Below the pieces are notes generated by a model. It was not told the origin of the DNA and ran no database searches. It was given only the letters and a program-made list of their open reading frames with translations. A DNA stretch of 44,383 nucleotides from Bacteroidales bacterium (GTDB lineage: Bacteria; Bacteroidota; Bacteroidia; Bacteroidales; WCHB1-69), in contig JAFZZT010000022.1 of assembly GCA_017615595.1 (NCBI GenBank), forward strand, positions 1 to 44,383. Direction: 5' to 3'. Of this stretch, positions 1 to 7,981 are shown one piece after another. The translations under genes and the position numbers were made by a program. Position 1 is the stretch's first letter. Each line of letters starts with the position of its first letter.

Positions 1-1
1 G

Positions 2-283
2 AGGCATGTGGACTGCCAAGGGGCAGGGAACGAGTGCCTGACTTCCTCCCGTGTGGCGCTGCAGGAGGTGGAGGGCGGCTACACCATGACCACGCTGGAC
101 ACCCTCGGGCTTACTTCCGAAGACTTTTGCAACATGCCGGCCCGCTCGCTGCAGTGTCCAGAAGAGGTTGGGTTCGCCTATCTGAACATCCCAGCGCAGC
201 TGGTTTTCCGCGATACCGTAACCCTCCAGTTTACCTTCACCGGACTCACCTTCACCGAAGAGCCGGCGTATAGTAATGAGTAA
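2..283 (+). CDS. C-terminal end of an unknown protein (5' truncated by window edge)
   Basis: The frame is open from the first bases of the window to the TAA at 281-283, so this is the last 93 residues of a longer protein. A GTG at 8 could in theory start it, but codons before it are also open and there is no convincing start signal. The visible part has no signal peptide, no T9SS sorting domain and no motif I recognise; it is fairly polar with several Cys and Thr residues and ends in EEPAYSNE. Its last 22 residues plus stop are repeated at 2700-2768 with only synonymous changes. Family unknown. Confidence 0.6.
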   Translation, partial: RHVDCQGAGNECLTSSRVALQEVEGGYTMTTLDTLGLTSEDFCNMPARSLQCPEEVGFAYLNIPAQLVFRDTVTLQFTFTGLTFTEEPAYSNE

Positions 284-291
284 ATTATTCG

Positions 292-320
292 TTGACAATA
301 TTCTACACCAAGAGTATAAA
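292..320 (+). promoter_or_regulatory. sigma70-like promoter (TTGACA-17-TATAAA)
   Basis: TTGACA at 292-297 and TATAAA at 315-320 are separated by exactly 17 bp and lie just upstream of the ATG at 353. This is the enterobacterial-style consensus, unlike the TAnnTTTG boxes in front of most other genes in this window. It may drive the AT-rich pair 353-2642. A chance match in AT-rich DNA cannot be excluded. Confidence 0.4.
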
Positions 321-352
321 AACATTGTTTTATTCTTAAATTGTTATTCGTT

Positions 353-2032
353 ATGAAAAAAAAGTACTTGTTTCTTTTATTGTTCACATTGTATTTTTTC
401 TGCGGTCATGCTCAATCGTATTTTCATGAGCAAGTATTGAGCGAGAGTGATAATCCTCTTCAGGTTGAGTCTGGTTTTTATGATACCGTTCTGATAAATC
501 AATTTTTAACTAAAAATGAAGTGCAAAACTTTTTAAATTGTATAGATTCCCTGGGAATACATAACAATGCTACATATAATATACTTGAAATACCTAATGA
601 TACAATCCTTTCGTTGTTGTATGACACGCTTATTTTTTATTCTCAAAAGGTTGATTCGTTAATAAACAATGCGCAAGATTATTTAATCTTCCAGGTTGAG
701 GATAGTTTTCCAAACAATCCTATACTTTATGTTTTCAATGCCTACTTAAATTTTTCTTCACTCCGAAGTAAAATCGAAGCAGAACTATTAACCTTAGAGC
801 ACAGAAGTGGCGTAAATCTCCTCTACAATCCTGATTATCATCATATAGTTTCAGATTATATGAGGAGTTTTCTTAACACAAACAATGCCATTGTAATTGA
901 TAACAACATATATCTATATGGAGAAGAACAACAAATTGTCATACCCAATAAAAACTTTAATAATTTAAGTTCCGTCCTATCTTTCTGGTATAACTTTGGA
1001 GAATTTCACGGCACGTTTAAAGCTTTTAAGGAAAACATTGCCAGACCTATTATTGAAAGCAAATCTGTCGAAGATCTTGACAACGACGAAAATCCATGTG
1101 ATTACATGCGATTGATTGTGGACATGGTAGACGATCATTGTCCACGGACCTTTTATTTTGATGTACTTTCACATCTTGGGAGTATAGAGTCCATATATTG
1201 GGATTTTGGCGATCAAACGACATCTTCAGACTTAACTCCAACTCACGAATATGAGTCGTCCGGATTATATAACATAGAGGCGATCATCAGTTTGAGAAAC
1301 GGAGATGTCTTACAATGTTCTTATAGTATAAGAGTGTCAGATTGTATTGTGTTTTTTTCACAGCCAGTTTCAACAACAACCGATGATGGGTTACTTTGTG
1401 AATTTGGTTTATATCCTCATCACTGCGATGAAGATGCGGAGATTGTGAGTTATAATTGGTCTTTTGGGAATGGGGAGACCTCTCAAGAGGCAGAACCAAC
1501 AGTGTTGTTTGAGAATGATGGGCGTTTCAACGTTAACGTAACCATACAATATTCTGATGGTTGTGTTGCGACCAATTCGATGATTATGCCTGTCTCAGGC
1601 ACAGGTAATTGTTGCAAAAACTTCTCAAAGGACACAATGACGGTCATATCTTTGGATAATGAATATAAAATCACTCATACTTTTTCAACATATAATATCT
1701 GGCCTTTTCATCGAATAGTAGTAAAAACGATTCATTATAAAAAGAAACTAAGTGGTAATTGGAAAAGAGAAAAAGCTTCATTTATTGAAAATTCTTTTGG
1801 TGGTGTTATTACACATAGCACAAATCGTTTATGTGATAATTTTGAGCATATTTATCCTAATGGACTTACTGTATATAATAAGAAAGTCAATAATTACGAT
1901 TATGGTGTTGGAGAGAGATTTAGAATTAGGAAAAATGACCTTTATTCAATATACAACGTTAAATCCAATGATATGACGGAAGCGCGGGGTTCTGATGACG
2001 CTTTATACCTACATAATAGAAACTGTCAATAA
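353..2032 (+). CDS. secreted PKD-domain protein, function unknown
   Basis: 559 residues from the ATG at 353, chosen because MKKKYLFLLLF begins a good signal peptide (about residues 1-21, ending HAQ); an ATG at 341 only adds MLFV. About 240 residues of unrecognised, mainly helical-looking sequence follow. Then come two PKD-type beta-sandwich repeats: about 264-330 with WDFGD near 283, and about 350-415 with NWSFGNGE near 368. The last about 140 residues, starting near a CC pair, are basic and aromatic and match no family I know. No T9SS type A or CHU_C sorting domain is visible at the C-terminus, unusual for such a protein. Base composition is clearly more AT-rich than the neighbours, suggesting recent acquisition. 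Likely cotranscribed with the barrel gene 34 bp downstream. Role could be adhesin or effector; inference only. Confidence 0.75.
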   Translation: MKKKYLFLLLFTLYFFCGHAQSYFHEQVLSESDNPLQVESGFYDTVLINQFLTKNEVQNFLNCIDSLGIHNNATYNILEIPNDTILSLLYDTLIFYSQKVDSLINNAQDYLIFQVEDSFPNNPILYVFNAYLNFSSLRSKIEAELLTLEHRSGVNLLYNPDYHHIVSDYMRSFLNTNNAIVIDNNIYLYGEEQQIVIPNKNFNNLSSVLSFWYNFGEFHGTFKAFKENIARPIIESKSVEDLDNDENPCDYMRLIVDMVDDHCPRTFYFDVLSHLGSIESIYWDFGDQTTSSDLTPTHEYESSGLYNIEAIISLRNGDVLQCSYSIRVSDCIVFFSQPVSTTTDDGLLCEFGLYPHHCDEDAEIVSYNWSFGNGETSQEAEPTVLFENDGRFNVNVTIQYSDGCVATNSMIMPVSGTGNCCKNFSKDTMTVISLDNEYKITHTFSTYNIWPFHRIVVKTIHYKKKLSGNWKREKASFIENSFGGVITHSTNRLCDNFEHIYPNGLTVYNKKVNNYDYGVGERFRIRKNDLYSIYNVKSNDMTEARGSDDALYLHNRNCQ

Positions 2033-2066
2033 ATAGACAAATAACATTCTAATCTCTAGGACTAAC

Positions 2067-2642
2067 ATGAAAAGAAGTGCTTTTATCTTGACGATGGTCT
2101 CCTTTGTGTTGATTTTGCAGGCACAAGAGGCAGATACCATTTCCTTAAAGACGCATGCCTACCATGCTGTCGAGTTGGATGGTCTGTTTAACTTTAACTC
2201 CAACAGATTCGGAGCCGGAATCGGCATCCATGAGGTGTATGGGAAGCAGTTCAATCCTCACCTGATTTTGGGTGGCGGACTAAGTTTCGACTATTTGGAT
2301 TATAGAGGAGTGGAACACTTTGCCAATTATGACGAGTTTTTTAATGTTGATGAGTTCTTTTTCCGTCTATATGTCAATTTCCGTTACATTATTATGGCCA
2401 AGACCAAATGGAGTCCATTGCTTATGCTCAGTGCTGGAGCAATATGCATTCTAGATGTTCCTCAAAGCTACAGAGGGTGTCAACCTATACAAATGTCATC
2501 CGATTTCGGAGTTTTTGCTTCCTTTTTTGCGGGTGTCAATTACAAACTGACAGAAAAGCATTGTTTATATGGAGGGTTCAGTTATGGTATGGATGTGCCG
2601 TTGCTTACGGGTTTCACATTCAAGCTTGGTGTTAGCTTTTAA
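2067..2642 (+). CDS. small outer-membrane beta-barrel-like protein
   Basis: 191 residues with a signal peptide (MKRSAFILTMVSFVLILQAQ). The rest alternates polar and aromatic residues in strand-like stretches (GAGIGIHEVYGKQF, LILGGGLSFDYLDY, FRLYVNFRYII) and ends in Phe (FKLGVSF), as expected for the terminal strand of a BAM-inserted barrel. Its size fits an 8-strand barrel of the OmpA/porin-family (outer membrane protein beta-barrel domain) type. It follows the PKD protein by 34 bp in the same AT-rich block, so the two probably form one unit; the barrel could anchor or assist the secreted partner, which is inference. Confidence 0.7.
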   Translation: MKRSAFILTMVSFVLILQAQEADTISLKTHAYHAVELDGLFNFNSNRFGAGIGIHEVYGKQFNPHLILGGGLSFDYLDYRGVEHFANYDEFFNVDEFFFRLYVNFRYIIMAKTKWSPLLMLSAGAICILDVPQSYRGCQPIQMSSDFGVFASFFAGVNYKLTEKHCLYGGFSYGMDVPLLTGFTFKLGVSF

Positions 2643-2699
2643 AATGTTTTACTGGCATAAAAATAGATAAAAAACGAAGAATTGGAAAGAACCCGAGCC

Positions 2700-2768
2700 A
2701 CCGTAACCCTCCAGTTCACCTTCACAGGACTCACCTTCACCGAAGAGCCGGCGTATAGCAATGAGTGA
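2700..2768 (+). pseudogene. orphan gene-end fragment, duplicate of 215-283
   Basis: 69 bp matching the last 23 codons (stop included) of the gene that ends at 283. There are four differences, all synonymous (TTT/TTC, ACC/ACA, AGT/AGC, TAA/TGA). Similarity starts and stops abruptly: the upstream frame carries a TAG at 2664-2666, and sequence after the stop is unrelated. It is therefore a displaced 3' end left by duplication, recombination or insertion of the AT-rich block. Confidence 0.8.
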
Positions 2769-2803
2769 GAAAAAATTCTTATTATTGCAACCCGAATTTT
2801 TTA

Positions 2804-2876
2804 AAGTTAAGAAACTAAGAAGTTAAGAAGCCAACGGCTAACAGCCAACAACTAATAGCTAATGGCTAACAGCTAA
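2804..2876 (+). repeat. short imperfect tandem repeats in an intergenic gap
   Basis: The gap before the gene at 2904 holds repeated words: AAGTTAAG twice (2804-2811, 2820-2827) and GGCTAACAGC twice (2836-2845, 2864-2873), interleaved with variants of the CTAAYAGC type. The style resembles the tandem heptamer tract at 5588-5726. Function unknown. Confidence 0.6.
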
Positions 2877-2903
2877 AGTCAAATCTTATAAAAACGCATC
2901 ACA

Positions 2904-3962
2904 ATGAAAACGACAGAATCCAAGACCGCAAAAATGCACTGGCTGATGACAGCCCTGCTGCTGACAGTGACTCTCTTCGCCGCCGCCCAGAACACATCCT
3001 GGTTGCTTTCAGGCAACTCGGACGCCACCTCGTCCAGTTTTGTGGGCACCACGAATGCTGTCCCTCTCCTGTTCGGCACCAATAACACTGTCCGGATGGC
3101 GTTGCTTCACGACAATCCCTATTTAGGTGTCGGAACCACGTCACCCGTCTCAAACCTGCACATTCATGGTTCGCAATCAGCCAATCCGAGACCCGTTCCC
3201 ACCACCTTCCAGATGACGAACCCCTCAACGGGCAGCACGACCACTGACGGGTTCAAGATTTTCCAGTCCTCCCTGGCAGTCACCATCTCACAGTTGGAAA
3301 AGGCCAACCTGAACGTCTTCAACAACGGCAACGGCTTTGTGGTGGACACAAACGGGTATGTGGGGTTCAACACCCAGTACCCCAAGCAGAAGATCCATGT
3401 GGTGGACCACAACATCTTGATAACCAAGACCTCCTCGCGGGCGCCAGGCTCCACCAACGGTTCCATATTGTTTGGTTCCGCCGCCAGCGACACCGACCCG
3501 GCAGGTTCGTGGGGGATCGAGTACTGCAACACTGAGAACGAGGGCTACGGCTTGAATTTCTGGAAAACATGGGAGACGGGCTACAACGGTTTCAACAACG
3601 CCCTGTTTCTTTCCAATGACGGCAACGTGGGCATCGGGACGAACACCCCGCAGGAGAAGTTGACGGTGAACGGGACGGTGTGCGCCAAGGAGGTGCGGGT
3701 GTCGTTGAGCGGAAGCCCATGCTGGCCCGACTATGTGTTCGGCAAAGAATACGACCTGATGACTCTGAAGGATCTTGGCAGCTATGTGGACGAGAACAGA
3801 CATCTGCCCGACATCCCATCCGCAGAGGAGGTGCAGCAGAACGGAGTGGAACTGGGCGAAATGAACGCCCTGCTATTACAGAAGATCGAGGAGCTCACGC
3901 TCTACATCCTAGACCTTCAAAAGCAGATTGACGAACTGAAAACGGAAGGAGGAGAGAGATGA
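2904..3962 (+). CDS. secreted fibre-like protein with S74-like C-terminal region and coiled coil
   Basis: 352 residues. The signal peptide ends near residue 29 (FAAAQ). Glycine-rich beta repeats of the VGxGTTSP / VGIGTNTP kind occur near 75-82 and 242-249, the second followed by QEKLTVNG, typical of bacterial and phage tail-fibre-like proteins. The C-terminal 90 residues hold WPDYVF (274-279), ENRHLPDIPSAEEV (297-310) and a predicted coiled coil (317-347), a layout I know from many Bacteroidota proteins related to the S74 endosialidase-chaperone region. It is probably a trimeric surface or secreted fibre. No lysis or packaging genes are nearby, so this is not evidence of a prophage. It is first in a four-gene run, overlapping the next gene by 4 nt (ATGA). 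Confidence 0.75.
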   Translation: MKTTESKTAKMHWLMTALLLTVTLFAAAQNTSWLLSGNSDATSSSFVGTTNAVPLLFGTNNTVRMALLHDNPYLGVGTTSPVSNLHIHGSQSANPRPVPTTFQMTNPSTGSTTTDGFKIFQSSLAVTISQLEKANLNVFNNGNGFVVDTNGYVGFNTQYPKQKIHVVDHNILITKTSSRAPGSTNGSILFGSAASDTDPAGSWGIEYCNTENEGYGLNFWKTWETGYNGFNNALFLSNDGNVGIGTNTPQEKLTVNGTVCAKEVRVSLSGSPCWPDYVFGKEYDLMTLKDLGSYVDENRHLPDIPSAEEVQQNGVELGEMNALLLQKIEELTLYILDLQKQIDELKTEGGER

Positions 3963-4462
3963 AAAAGATCTTATTGCTGGGGTGCATAATATTGTTTTCA
4001 ACACTATTGTTCTCACAGACAAACAGCGAAGACTTGCCCGGAGTGACGCTGACGCACCGGCATGGGAACTTGTATAATGCATCCACTCTGAAGAAGCTGG
4101 ATGTGCCCGCTCTGGGCAGCATGCTCACCAAGGATTCGTTCTTCACCTATTGCAAAGCACGCGCGGAATACACGGCCTCCATTTCCATGTGGGCGATCTT
4201 CGGAGCGGGAGCTATCGCATCTTTATCCATAGCAATGGCAGAGCATAGAAATATGCCAAATTACTCGCTAATGGCTTCTACTTTTTATTATACTCCCTTT
4301 ATATGCACGTTTGCCTTAACAGCAGTGGCGCTGATACCAGCAGTGGTCCTCACAGTCGACAGCCACATGAAGCTGAACCGAGTGGCGACAGGATACAACA
4401 ACGGCAGATCCCTTTCCCTAGGCCTAAATGGGCACGGGCTTGGTTTAACCTTGAAATTCTGA
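3959..4462 (+). CDS. small exported membrane protein, paralog of the next gene
   Basis: 167 residues with an N-terminal signal (MKKILLLGCIILFSTLLFSQ), a short soluble part with HRHGNLYN, a motif of the form KARxEYxxxIxxWA (KARAEYTASISMWA), then two hydrophobic segments (after SISMWA and around TAVALIPAVVLTV), and a Gly/Leu-rich end (GLGLTLKF). It starts inside the stop of the fibre gene (ATGA), implying translational coupling. Length, motifs and end align with the protein at 4468-5013, so this is a tandem duplicate. Family name not recognised; function unknown. Confidence 0.75.
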   Translation: MKKILLLGCIILFSTLLFSQTNSEDLPGVTLTHRHGNLYNASTLKKLDVPALGSMLTKDSFFTYCKARAEYTASISMWAIFGAGAIASLSIAMAEHRNMPNYSLMASTFYYTPFICTFALTAVALIPAVVLTVDSHMKLNRVATGYNNGRSLSLGLNGHGLGLTLKF

Positions 4463-4467
4463 AAAAC

Positions 4468-5013
4468 ATGAAAAAGACAGTATTCACACTTACCATCATA
4501 GCGTTTGCTTTGATGTTGAACGCTCAAGAGTCAGATAGTACAGGTGCTTATCCCATGCAACTGGCAAGACACCATGGGCATCTTTGTGATATGCACAGTT
4601 TGGAAAAAATTTCCTTGCAGTCATCATTATATATCCTTTCACCGGAGAACTTCAACATGTACTATAAGGCCCGTCGGGAATATGTATCGGCCATCACTTT
4701 GTGGGCCGTAGGAGGAGTCGTGACAACCTGTTTTATGGGATACGCTTGCGGAACTTTAATAGTGTCCGCCCTGCATCCGCCACACAATCCAGAAGGGCAT
4801 GAAGTGGTGGATATGAGCCCTGTTTTTGCCAAGATTTCTGCTGGAATCGCCGTGGGCTCTGCCATCCTTTTTTTCACCCCCGCCCTTGTATTAACCCTGG
4901 ATAGCCATAAAAAAATTGACCGCATTGTGGCTGATTACAATCAGAAATCTAACTCGCCATCCCTGTCTTTCGGCCCCACCCGGTACGGAGTCGGTGTGTC
5001 TCTAAACTTTTGA
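4468..5013 (+). CDS. small exported membrane protein, paralog of the previous gene
   Basis: 181 residues from the ATG at 4468, 5 bp after the previous stop; a longer frame from 4303 lies mostly inside the previous gene and is rejected because MKKTVFTLTIIAFALMLNAQ is an obvious signal peptide. It shares RHHGHL, the KARREYVSAITLWA motif, two transmembrane stretches, a TLDSHKKIDRIVADYN segment and a GVGVSLNF end with the upstream paralog. Divergence is substantial, so the duplication is not recent. Function unknown; its place suggests it works with the fibre-like protein. Confidence 0.75.
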   Translation: MKKTVFTLTIIAFALMLNAQESDSTGAYPMQLARHHGHLCDMHSLEKISLQSSLYILSPENFNMYYKARREYVSAITLWAVGGVVTTCFMGYACGTLIVSALHPPHNPEGHEVVDMSPVFAKISAGIAVGSAILFFTPALVLTLDSHKKIDRIVADYNQKSNSPSLSFGPTRYGVGVSLNF

Positions 5014-5018
5014 ACATC

Positions 5019-5561
5019 ATGAAAAAATTCTTTTACACACTGTCATTTCTCTGTTCCTGTGTTGTGCTTTTCGCACAAGTTCCCGCATCCTTGTCGGATT
5101 GAGACACTTCGGAATATGTGGCACACAGGGAGATAGTATTGCAACCTGGTTTCACCGCAGAGAGCGGAAGTGTGTTCACCGCCAAAATCGAACCCTGCGC
5201 TTCGTGTGACGAAAACAATGGCTCCCGTTCCCTCCCGGTTCAAAGAAAACCTGTGGACTTGGCAAATCAACCTAGTGATCCTATGCGGGATATGGAAGGT
5301 GTTACGCTGCATAATATAGAAAACTCTGGACTTTCCCTATATCCCAACCCCACGGACGGCACCGTGACCGTGGAGTCCACAGGGGGTGTGCTAATAGAAA
5401 TAATCATGGTTTACGACTCCTTCGGGCGCATTGTGGCCACATACGAAATCAATGATCTCCTCGGCACCTTCGACATGCATAGTCTCCACGGCGGCCTCTA
5501 CCTCCTCCGTGCACAGATGTCAGACGGCACCGTGCAGTCGGGAAAGGTGATGAAGCTATGA
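5019..5561 (+). pseudogene. T9SS type A sorting-domain protein interrupted by in-frame TGA
   Basis: The ATG at 5019, 5 bp after the previous stop, opens a signal peptide (MKKFFYTLSFLCSCVVLFAQ) that meets TGA at 5100-5102 after 27 codons. The same frame continues without shift into DTSEYVAHREIVLQPGF, AESGSVFTAKI and a type A C-terminal sorting domain (LYPNPTDGTVTV ... GGLYLLRAQMSDG ... GKVMKL) ending at 5561. Repaired, the protein would be about 180 residues. The segment EIVLQPGFTAESGSVFTAKIE is common just before T9SS domains in this phylum. A GTG at 5118 could restart translation, but without a signal peptide it could not reach the T9SS. Nonsense mutation, sequencing error or readthrough are the options. 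Confidence 0.75.
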
Positions 5562-5587
5562 TGCTAAGAGGGGGTAAAGGGTTGAAA

Positions 5588-5726
5588 GTTTACGGTTTAC
5601 CGTTTACCGTTTACCGATGAGGCGATTAGAGGAGAAAGAGGAGAAGGGAGGAGAAGGGAGGAGCAGGGAGGAGAACTTCTAACTCCAAACTTCTAACTCC
5701 TAACTGACAACTGACAACTGACAACT
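5588..5726 (+). repeat. cluster of tandem heptamer, decamer and 13-mer repeats
   Basis: Between the broken T9SS gene and mutB lie four units of GTTTACS (5588-5615), three to four of GAGAAGGGAG (5641-5674), two copies of AACTTCTAACTCC (5674-5686, 5688-5700) and three of AACTGAC (5702-5722). Each tract has a different unit, which argues for an active repeat-generating process rather than one element. No ORF of note overlaps. Confidence 0.85.
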
Positions 5727-5792
5727 CTTCACTATTATCTCCTCCTGGTTGGCCAAAAACTTTCGCACTGAGAAATCGTACCATTTTTTTTG

Positions 5793-5800
5793 TATTTTTG
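5793..5800 (+). promoter_or_regulatory. -7 box of mutB promoter (TATTTTTG)
   Basis: TATTTTTG fits the Bacteroidota -7 consensus TAnnTTTG and lies 31 bp before the mutB ATG. A good -33 TTTG at the usual distance is not evident. Confidence 0.55.
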
Positions 5801-5830
5801 CGCTCTAAAACAAGAAAGTGCAATTAGATT

Positions 5831-7981
5831 ATGCGTTGTGATTTTAGTAATGTAGATTTCAAGCAAACTACAAGAGAAAAGAAAGACTTCCGCGAGTGGG
5901 AGAAAGAGCATGGCATCTCCACGGATTGGCTGACTTCCGAGCAGATTCCCGTCAAGCAGGTGTATGGTGAGGATGACCTTTTAGGCATGGAGCATCTGAA
6001 CTATGCTGCGGGTATCCCGCCGTTCCTCCATGGTCCCTACTCCATGATGTATGCGTTCCGCCCTTGGACTATCCGTCAATATGCGGGTTTCTCCACCGCC
6101 GAAGAGTCCAATGCCTTCTACCGCCGCAACTTGGCCGCGGGCCAGAAGGGTCTGTCCATCGCCTTCGACTTGGCGACCCACAGAGGCTACGACTCGGACC
6201 ATCCGCGCGTGGTGGGTGATGTGGGCAAAGCAGGTGTGGCCGTGGATTCCATCCTCGACATGCGCATCCTCTTCGACCAGATCCCGTTGGACAAGATGTC
6301 CGTCTCCATGACGATGAACGGCGCCGTGCTGCCCATCCTGGCCTTCTACATCCTCGCCGCCGAGGAGCAGGGCGTCAGCATGGACAAGCTGTCGGGCACC
6401 ATCCAGAACGACATCTTGAAGGAGTTCATGGTGCGTAACACCTACATCTATCCTCCGTTGCCATCCATGAAGATCATCGCCGACATCTTCGAGTTCACCT
6501 CCAAGAACATGCCCAAGTTCAACTCCATCTCCATCTCCGGTTATCATATGCAGGAGGCCGGCGCCACGGACGACATCGAGTTGGCCTACACGTTGGCCGA
6601 CGGTCTGGAGTACCTCCGCGCCGGTGTCAACGCAGGTATGAGTGTGGACGACTTCGCGCCGCGCTTGTCCTTCTTCTGGGGTATCGGCATGAACCACTTC
6701 ATGGAGATTGCCAAGATGCGCGCTGCCCGTATGCTGTGGGCCAAGATCGTGAAACAGTTCAACCCGCAGAATCCGAAGTCTATGGCGCTGCGTACGCATA
6801 GCCAGACCTCCGGCTGGTCGCTCACCGAACAGGATCCTTTCAACAACGTATGCCGTACCTGTGTGGAGGCTATGGGCGCCGCCCTGGGCCACACCCAGTC
6901 GCTGCACACCAACGCGTTGGACGAGGCCATCGCCCTGCCGACCGACTTCTCCGCCCGTATCGCCCGTAACACGCAGATCTATATCCAAGAAGAGACCAAG
7001 ATATGTAAGTCCATCGACCCGTGGGCTGGCTCCTACTATGTGGAGAGCCTCACCCATCAGATTGCCCACCGTGCCTGGAAACACCTCCAGGAGATTGAAT
7101 CCCTGGGCGGCATGGCCAAGGCTATCGAGACTGGCGTGCCGAAGATGCGTATCGAAGAGGCCTCTGCCCGCAAGCAGGCCCGTATCGACTCCGGCAAGGA
7201 GGCCATCATCGGCGTCAGCAAGTACAAACTCGACAAAGAGTCTCCCATCGAGACCCTCGAGGTGGACAACACCACCGTGCGCGAAGCACAGCTCAAGCGT
7301 CTGGCTGAGTTGCGCGCCAACCGTAACGATGACGAGGTAAAGGCAGCCTTGAACGCCCTGACCGAGTGCGCCCGCACCGGCGAAGGCAACCTGCTCGACC
7401 TCTCCATCAAGGCCGCCCGTGCCCGCTGCTCCTTAGGTGAAATTTCCGACGCCCTCGAAGTGGTGTTCGGCCGTTATAAAGCAAAAATAAATCTGATTTC
7501 AGGCGTGTATAGTGCAGAACAACAAAGCAACGAAGCCTTCAAGAAGGCTTGCAAGATGTGCGACGAGTTCGCCAAGAAAGAGGGCCGTCGCCCCAGAGTA
7601 ATGGTAGCCAAGATGGGCCAGGACGGCCATGACCGTGGTGCCAAGGTGGTAGCCACCGGCTATGCCGACATCGGCTTCGACGTGGATATGGGACCGCTGT
7701 TCCAGACTCCGGCAGAGGCTGCCAAACAGGCTGTCGAGAACGACGTCCACATCCTCGGCGTCTCCTCCCTGGCCGCCGGTCACAAGACCCTCGTTCCGCA
7801 AGTGATCGAGGAGCTCAAGAAGCTGGGCCGCGAGGACATCATCATCACCGTGGGTGGCGTCATCCCTCCGCAAGACTATCAGTTCCTGTACGACTGCGGC
7901 GTGGCGGCCATCTTCGGACCGGGAACACCCATCGCCACCTCCGCCATCGCCATGCTGGAACTGCTCATGGCAGAGGAGTAA
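5831..7981 (+). CDS. mutB: methylmalonyl-CoA mutase, large catalytic subunit
   Basis: 716 residues, full length for the large subunit. It interconverts succinyl-CoA and (R)-methylmalonyl-CoA using adenosylcobalamin, in the cytosolic propionate pathway. The N-terminal TIM barrel shows [33 protein letters not shown] and [19 protein letters not shown]; the C-terminal cobalamin domain has DGHDRG at 598-603, with His600 as the lower axial cobalt ligand, and later GVSSLAAGH and GGVIPPQDY. It stands alone: the small subunit gene mutA, normally just upstream in this phylum, is absent, and the upstream neighbour is unrelated. It has its own promoter and terminator. The assignment is very secure. Confidence 0.97.

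Follow-up and report, generated by a model that had tools for sequence, protein, structure and literature searches.

Probable exchange of gene cassettes through the 3′ end of a lipoprotein-like gene in a Bacteroidales genomic island

Why should the last codons of a gene be found a second time, in the same orientation, downstream of two other genes? The question is raised by contig JAFZZT010000022.1 of the Bacteroidales bacterium assembly GCA_017615595.1, which was analysed over its full length of 44,383 nucleotides (hereafter, the window). It is contig C51 of a 53-contig, 2.1-Mb assembly and begins inside a gene, here called gene A, the 3′ end of which recurs behind two AT-rich genes. An earlier note on this DNA had proposed that the two genes arrived by recombination, at a site where surface-protein cassettes are exchanged. 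Comparison with relatives, in the form of species representatives that are mostly fragmented assemblies, some with contigs ending at these very genes, lends partial support to arrival by recombination: the locus varies between relatives, the composition of the cassette is distinct, gene ends have been displaced repeatedly and different genes are joined behind the gene end. Neither of the two outcomes named in the note as refuting its proposal, an unvarying gene order in every relative or a cassette of average composition, was obtained. That the genes behind gene A are exchanged is well supported, and we regard it as probable that the exchange takes place through the tail of A, with displacement of the type known from Rhs elements. 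In the following, genomes are given as G and contigs as C numbers, the genome of the window being G000.

Window positions 215-283 and 2700-2768 agree in 65 of their 69 bases, and the four differing codons (TTT/TTC, ACC/ACA, AGT/AGC and TAA/TGA) are all silent, confirming the initial description. Of the abrupt edges that were part of it, the right one coincides with the stop codon, while the left one lies approximately 7 bases further left than claimed. A repeat scan of the 44,383 bases, which may miss repeats with indels, yielded this pair (208-281 and 2693-2766, 74 nt, 92%, direct orientation, spacing 2485) as the sole strong repeat; the remaining pairs of at least 30 nt were two direct ones, 76% and 74% alike, and one inverted one (73%), the copies of which are 30 kb apart. 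In its own genome, the 69-mer is found at these two places of the window alone. The repeat itself consists of coding sequence, that of gene A. The cassette between the two tails (284-2699) is AT-rich, as had been stated, with a G+C content of 35.2% versus 52.4% for the window, and the third-position G+C (GC3) of its PKD and barrel genes is 0.30 and 0.45, respectively, compared with 0.68-0.85 for 24 and 0.48-0.57 for five of the 29 other open reading frames (ORFs) of at least 150 codons. The PKD assignment of the first gene was confirmed (table 1), while that of the second as a small barrel protein is tentative, its match to a TonB barrel being sub-threshold (E 0.0037).

Gene A and the genes behind it

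Members of the gene A family encode approximately 165 residues, with N-termini that, by eye, resemble lipoprotein signals. The 5′ half of the window's copy is cut off by the contig start, and its nearest relative is the copy at G024:C28 (86% over 277 bp). No Pfam match was obtained at E up to 1 for any of four copies tested and no NCBIfam match for either of two. One full copy, used as the query, found matches in 33 of 40 genomes of the same genus; in the order the gene is rare (three genomes of this genus and one other among 295 sampled). In a tblastn search at 1e-5 of catalogued mobile elements (72,556 plasmid and 50,697 phage records), one copy (L068) had no match. A hidden Markov model (HMM) of the family, run over the fetched stretches, detected it in 33 genomes, with 89 rows in total, of which 69 are near full length. 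On the upstream side, where 67 copies have at least 600 bp of sequence, A is accompanied in 63 by a divergent LytTR/winged-helix regulator homologue. Two adjacent regulator-A units were also observed at G063:C29 (L238, 3017-7394), with a broken frame in the first A. We found no account of this family or of its exchange behaviour in the open-licence literature; one may exist elsewhere.

The first ORF behind A belongs to 36 families among 56 copies, some of which may be chance ORFs; the search extended to 450 bp, within which nine further copies had no ORF, and five had too little sequence. By eye, the products include type IX secretion system (T9SS)-type, fibre-like and lipoprotein-like proteins, and at G002:C28 (L291, 3489-3731) the gene behind A encodes a radical S-adenosylmethionine-modified precursor of a ribosomally synthesized and post-translationally modified peptide (RiPP; TIGR04149). 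Thus, a site behind a gene end that joins different genes is found, as had been suggested, but in view of this RiPP precursor of another species it does not serve surface proteins alone. Short peptides with a GG motif were seen by eye behind other copies of A; one was checked and had no NCBIfam match.

The modularity of the region is directly visible among the 64 of 70 aligned copies that are flanked by 300 bp or more upstream as well as downstream. In the resulting 2,016 pairs, which are not independent, homology is shared upstream only in 207, downstream only in 47, on both sides in 39 and on neither in 1,723. Tails at least 88% identical on fronts at most 55% identical occur in 20 pairs. 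Two mosaics illustrate the pattern. Between the copies at G004:C17 and G004:C26, similarity rises from 35-41% in the front to 93-100% over the last two segments and is 93% downstream, and upstream there is no match; between those at G008:C3 and G029:C12, it rises from 31-42% over the first two segments to 97% in the last, and neither flank matches within 300 bp. The last segments are at least 85% alike in 88 pairs, with a downstream match within 300 bp present in 39 and absent in 49. Two loci of G014 are 97.5% identical over 787 bp up to the last codon of an orphan A tail, and then diverge.

The tail includes the most conserved stretches of the protein, with a mean identity of 75-78% in codons 109-120 and 133-156 (36% in codons 121-132, 49% in codons 157-165), compared with 24-57% before codon 109. 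Conservation at the protein level might by itself have kept the tails alike, the copies being old paralogues and the second tail of the window the ordinary decaying end of a pseudogene; that synonymous identity over all pairs is also somewhat higher in the tail (0.55 versus 0.45) would agree with this. However, near-identical tails are carried by copies with dissimilar fronts, and among the 1,973 pairs whose fronts are at most 55% alike, those within one genome (51 pairs) exceed the others in synonymous codon identity by 0.088 in codons 112-165 (0 of 2,000 permutations, which ignore phylogeny). No such excess was found in the front (codons 0-95, +0.004; 752 of 2,000), which serves as an internal control because shared codon usage would raise front and tail alike. 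A second computation over all genomes gave the same picture, a tail excess without a front excess. Protein-level conservation as the sole cause is thus unlikely, and the excess points to recombination or gene conversion that would be centred on the 3′ end of A. The earlier note had taken the silent differences in the window to mean that the second tail had belonged to a functional gene until not long ago; this does not follow, since homogenization of tails by recombination, as seen across the genus, leads to silent differences too.

Orphan tails and the order of events

The C-terminal part of A was found alone in ten HMM rows. Setting aside G009:C74, where the gene is broken by Ns, and G031:C55 and G016:C25, at or near contig ends, leaves orphan tails at seven places (the window, G001:C51, G013:C1, G014:C28, G014:C47, G016:C32 and G019:C61), or six distinct events when the two G014 cases are counted as one. 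They keep an intact stop codon and have other genes behind them. The layout of the window is mirrored at G013:C1, where a full A precedes a fibre gene and a small gene; next comes a truncated gene, in frame with the A tail to which it is fused, and behind this tail are two more genes, the first of them lipoprotein-like. At G001:C51, the tail lies between other genes, with no A visible before it. Five of the six events start at HMM positions 127-148, a zone of 22 codons (P 0.0004 under uniform breaks, the zone having been picked after seeing the data). The nearest tail to the orphan is in the same genome in six of the ten rows, with a clear margin in the window (three differences in 66, the next best having eight) and in G014.

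The reverse counterpart of an orphan tail is present at G062:C53 (L316, 1119-1496), 1.1 kb from the contig end, where the regulator is followed by an A front that ends at HMM position 135, by no tail, and by another gene. The other tail-less rows are at contig ends (G015:C156 and G006:C43) or are broken copies (G009:C74, G031:C8 and G063:C29), and G032:C79 retains only the middle of A, positions 59-102. An apparent excess of orphan tails over orphan fronts was considered and discarded, given this tail-less front and the poor detectability of front fragments: in detection trials, those of 25, 35 and 50 residues were found in 5, 25 and 54 of 69 cases, respectively, and tails in 69 of 69.

These observations can be accommodated in the following scheme. 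The island would open with a control module, formed by the divergent regulator and gene A, behind which variable gene cassettes are placed, and the last approximately 50 codons of A would act as a homology hinge. Recombination between copies of A within the hinge would connect the regulator and A front of one copy with the cassette that follows a different copy. In the window, the PKD-barrel cassette would have been inserted directly behind A, and the earlier cassette, with the head and fibre genes, pushed downstream with a 76-bp fragment of the A tail attached, as in the displacement of Rhs C-termini. The process may be a RecA-type recombination with a circular or similar intermediate, and its role may be to vary surface or secreted products. 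How the orphan of the window originated, by displacement or by deletion in a tandem array, and in what order the events took place there, is inferred from the present arrangement and forms the more conditional part of the scheme.

Deletion deserves consideration in its own right. If a regulator-A-PKD-barrel unit had been followed by a regulator-A-fibre unit, the loss of a segment starting behind the barrel gene and reaching into the 3′ end of the second A would have taken away the second regulator and most of that A, and left the tail where it is now. Such an event needs no circle and accounts for the orphan of the window equally simply, adjacent regulator-A units do exist (G063:C29), and the regulator or a piece of it remains upstream of the tail in G014, G016:C32 and G019:C61. 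It leaves unexplained, however, the homogenization of tails within genomes, as well as the narrow zone of orphan starts and the tail-less front that ends in it. We therefore hold tandem deletion to be a possible but clearly less likely origin than exchange through the A tail with displacement.

Two further explanations carry much less weight. Ending as they do at an intact stop codon with other genes after it, the orphan tails could have been retained as a signal for these genes, through translational coupling, an RNA element or a promoter. Against such a role, the distance from the stop codon of A to the ORF taken as the next one ranges from 3 to 443 nt in 56 copies, window positions 1-6000 have no Rfam match at gathering score and the A at G062:C53 does without a tail, so that a signal appears very improbable. 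A contig misjoined at the repeat is, in our judgement, more improbable still. The window does start inside A, and the A copies of G024 are also near contig ends, indicating that the repeat disturbs assembly; but the two tails of the window differ at four of 69 bases, and orphan tails lie deep in long contigs elsewhere (G013:C1, 351 kb, with the layout of the window, and G014:C47, 239 kb).

Several points weigh against exchange through the tail and need to be set beside the evidence in its favour. Upstream homology tracks the front of A (area under the curve, AUC, 0.98) more closely than its tail (0.81), a lead to which the shortness and conservation of the tail may contribute. Tail similarity as the better predictor of shared downstream DNA had to be rejected, its AUC being 0.71 as compared with 0.67 for the front, a difference reached in 482 of 2,000 permutations; the crossovers would therefore be old or frequent, and many of them unreadable. 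When G063, G024 and G004 are left out, the synonymous excess in the tail falls to +0.049 (9 of 2,000 permutations, again ignoring phylogeny) and comes mainly from codons 150-165 (+0.091, 4 of 2,000), codons 132-150 alone being not significant (+0.017, 463 of 2,000). The nearest tail in the same genome wins by just one to three differences in G013, G016:C25 and G019, and four of the ten orphan rows have their nearest tail in another genome (one of these is misregistered by an indel and one is cut by a contig end); for each of the G014 orphans the nearest tail is the other orphan, followed by a full copy. The orphan of the window is one event in one assembly. Finally, no recombinase was identified near the A copies, among which no systematic search for one was made.

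The island in relatives and its other genes

The part of the window from position 1 to approximately 5,650 is, on the reading that we favour as probable, the right-hand part of a genomic island lodged between two housekeeping genes (table 1). The locus of the right-hand neighbour was compared in eight species, and the gene order at it differs between relatives. The island is absent from the orthologous place in G024, G061, G005 and G001, the four sister species with both neighbours in view; there, the left housekeeping gene directly precedes the right one, with or without a gene for a 188-residue protein. In G029 and G008 a different neighbour is present, and no island, while in G060 the locus carries a head/leucine-rich repeat (LRR) gene with a broken frame and then reaches the contig end. 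In the genome of the window, the left neighbour is on contig G000:C9. Behind it come a 108-bp repeat, 91% alike to window 5628-5735, and then the C-terminal 66-69 residues of a regulator, with which the contig ends; over 66 residues they share 71% identity with the regulator next to A at G024:C28. This A, although the copy nearest to the window's, is at another chromosomal place. The island would thus lie between the left and right neighbours, with an assembly gap over the regulator and the front of A.

Table 1. Features of the first 8 kb of the window, with the evidence for each.
Feature	Position	Strand	Evidence or remarks
3′ part of gene A (93 codons and stop), a lipoprotein-like leader gene whose family is genus-wide	2..283	+	A-family HMM positions 80-172
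First tail copy, from the 3′ end of gene A, within the proposed exchange hinge	208..283	+	Repeat comparison and scan
PKD-domain protein, 559 aa, AT-rich, first cassette gene behind A	353..2032	+	PF18911, E 9.6e-19; G+C 34%, GC3 0.30
Small predicted barrel protein, 191 aa	2067..2642	+	Weak barrel match; relatives adjoin PKD relatives in G028 and G002
3′ flank of barrel gene	2643..2690	+	Also behind orphan barrel tail at G000:C28 and G024:C13; end point judged by eye
Orphan tail of gene A, approximately 24 codons and stop	2693..2768	+	A HMM positions 148-172, E 1.8e-8
Leader and signal-peptide 'head' common to genes at G024:C3, G060:C28 and G000:C28	2769..2990	+	DNA identity 86%, 78% and 81%; part is a dispersed intergenic repeat
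Chimeric fibre-like gene	2904..3962	+	Head of one gene kind joined near signal-peptide end to the G005/G060 SecA-side body
Small protein of fibre cassette	3959..4462	+	169-aa counterpart in G005/G060
Small protein of fibre cassette	4468..5013	+	181-aa counterpart in G005/G060
Decayed last cassette gene: short start, early stop, remnants of a C10-peptidase/T9SS gene and another T9SS gene end	5019..5561	+	Por_Secre_tail match
Intergenic repeat	5628..5735	+	91% copy beside regulator at end of contig G000:C9, presumed other island side
Right-hand housekeeping neighbour, presumably methylmalonyl-CoA mutase-like (recognized by eye)	5831..7981	+	Match in 35 of 40 genus genomes

Mosaicism extends to the fibre, barrel and PKD genes. 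The fibre cassette (window 2985-4691) is found in G005 and G060 at another place, upstream of a gene that we take by eye to be SecA, and at this SecA-side locus G000 has a head/LRR gene of the kind carried by G060 at the locus of the window. The fibre gene itself is a chimera: its leader and signal peptide are as in G024:C3 and G000:C28 and its body as in G005 and G060, where the signal peptide is another, the switch lying close to the end of the signal peptide in a short stretch that is shared. An orphan tail of the barrel gene, with its 3′ flank, is present behind a 66-codon gene upstream of SecA in G000:C28 (L100, 1644-1739) and G024:C13 (L023, 2101-2188), with an identical junction in the two species. 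Distant relatives of the PKD and barrel genes are side by side in G028 and G002, and no copy of A was met around the barrel relatives in the five stretches that were read.

Transposase pieces were observed directly before the SecA-side fibre cassette (G005:C5, L225, 7062-7865, and G060:C96, L226, 4080-4883); the first ORF of L225 contains DUF772. Dispersed intergenic repeats (taacagctaac-type and gtttaccgtttacc-type) are present at window positions 2805-2880 and 5560-5735, as well as in many places in the genus. The likeness of 2805-2880 to most genomes of the genus was accordingly rejected as evidence of gene exchange, being that of a dispersed repeat, and what looked by eye like a degraded A tail upstream of the head gene at G024:C3 is too degenerate to be claimed.

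Comparison with known systems

It is tempting, though tentative, to go one step further and regard A with its regulator as a dedicated expression site, and the 3′ end of A as a standing recombination site at which cassettes for surface proteins, secreted enzymes and RiPP precursors are exchanged between loci. Were this the case, one sensor/regulator would come to drive different outputs, and orphan tails would mark past exchanges. The findings as such point to displacement-type gene exchange outside toxin systems, with a whole cassette behind the stop codon of an unrelated, uncharacterized lipoprotein-like gene as its unit. They provide, in the orphan tails, a countable scar of surface-gene turnover in uncultured gut and rumen Bacteroidales, and tie this turnover to a conserved regulator.

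In the maf islands of Neisseria, an intact gene is followed by alternative ends and orphan pieces, the cassettes consisting of toxin C-termini and immunity genes. The order of an intact gene, then alternatives and orphan pieces, is shared with the locus described here, the cassettes of which are instead PKD, fibre-like, LRR or C10/T9SS proteins, lipoprotein-like genes and a RiPP precursor. The invertible surface loci, or shufflons, of Bacteroidales vary surface-protein genes by means of inverted repeats and an invertase. Surface-protein gene variation in the same order of bacteria is common to both cases, but here the repeats are direct, with a single weak inverted pair of at least 30 nt in 44 kb, its copies 30 kb apart, and no invertase was identified, a systematic search not having been made. 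Among the bab/hom outer-membrane genes of Helicobacter pylori, paralogues are homogenized by gene conversion in part of the gene, as proposed for A; there, the variation lies inside the protein, whereas here it is in the genes behind A.

The closest parallel is offered by Rhs elements. In Jackson et al. (2009, PMC2935791), where mafB is also named, a conserved core is described as decoupled from variable sequence of distinct composition, with displaced units downstream that carry a core fragment; for the layout core, tip, core fragment, displaced tip, these authors proposed homologous recombination with a circular intermediate. The window reproduces this layout as A, cassette 1, A fragment, cassette 2. 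Its conserved part, A, is likewise decoupled from what follows, namely the genes behind A rather than A's own C-terminus, and a displaced unit with a fragment of the conserved part is present at window 2693-2768 and at G013:C1, as well as at G001:C51, where no full A is in view. The differences are equally clear: A is a small lipoprotein-like gene in which an Rhs/YD-repeat core was not found (Pfam, four of four copies; NCBIfam, two of two), the exchanged unit consists of whole genes behind the stop codon of A, and the hinge is the 3′ part of A itself. The locus of the window thus works like Rhs displacement without being an Rhs element.

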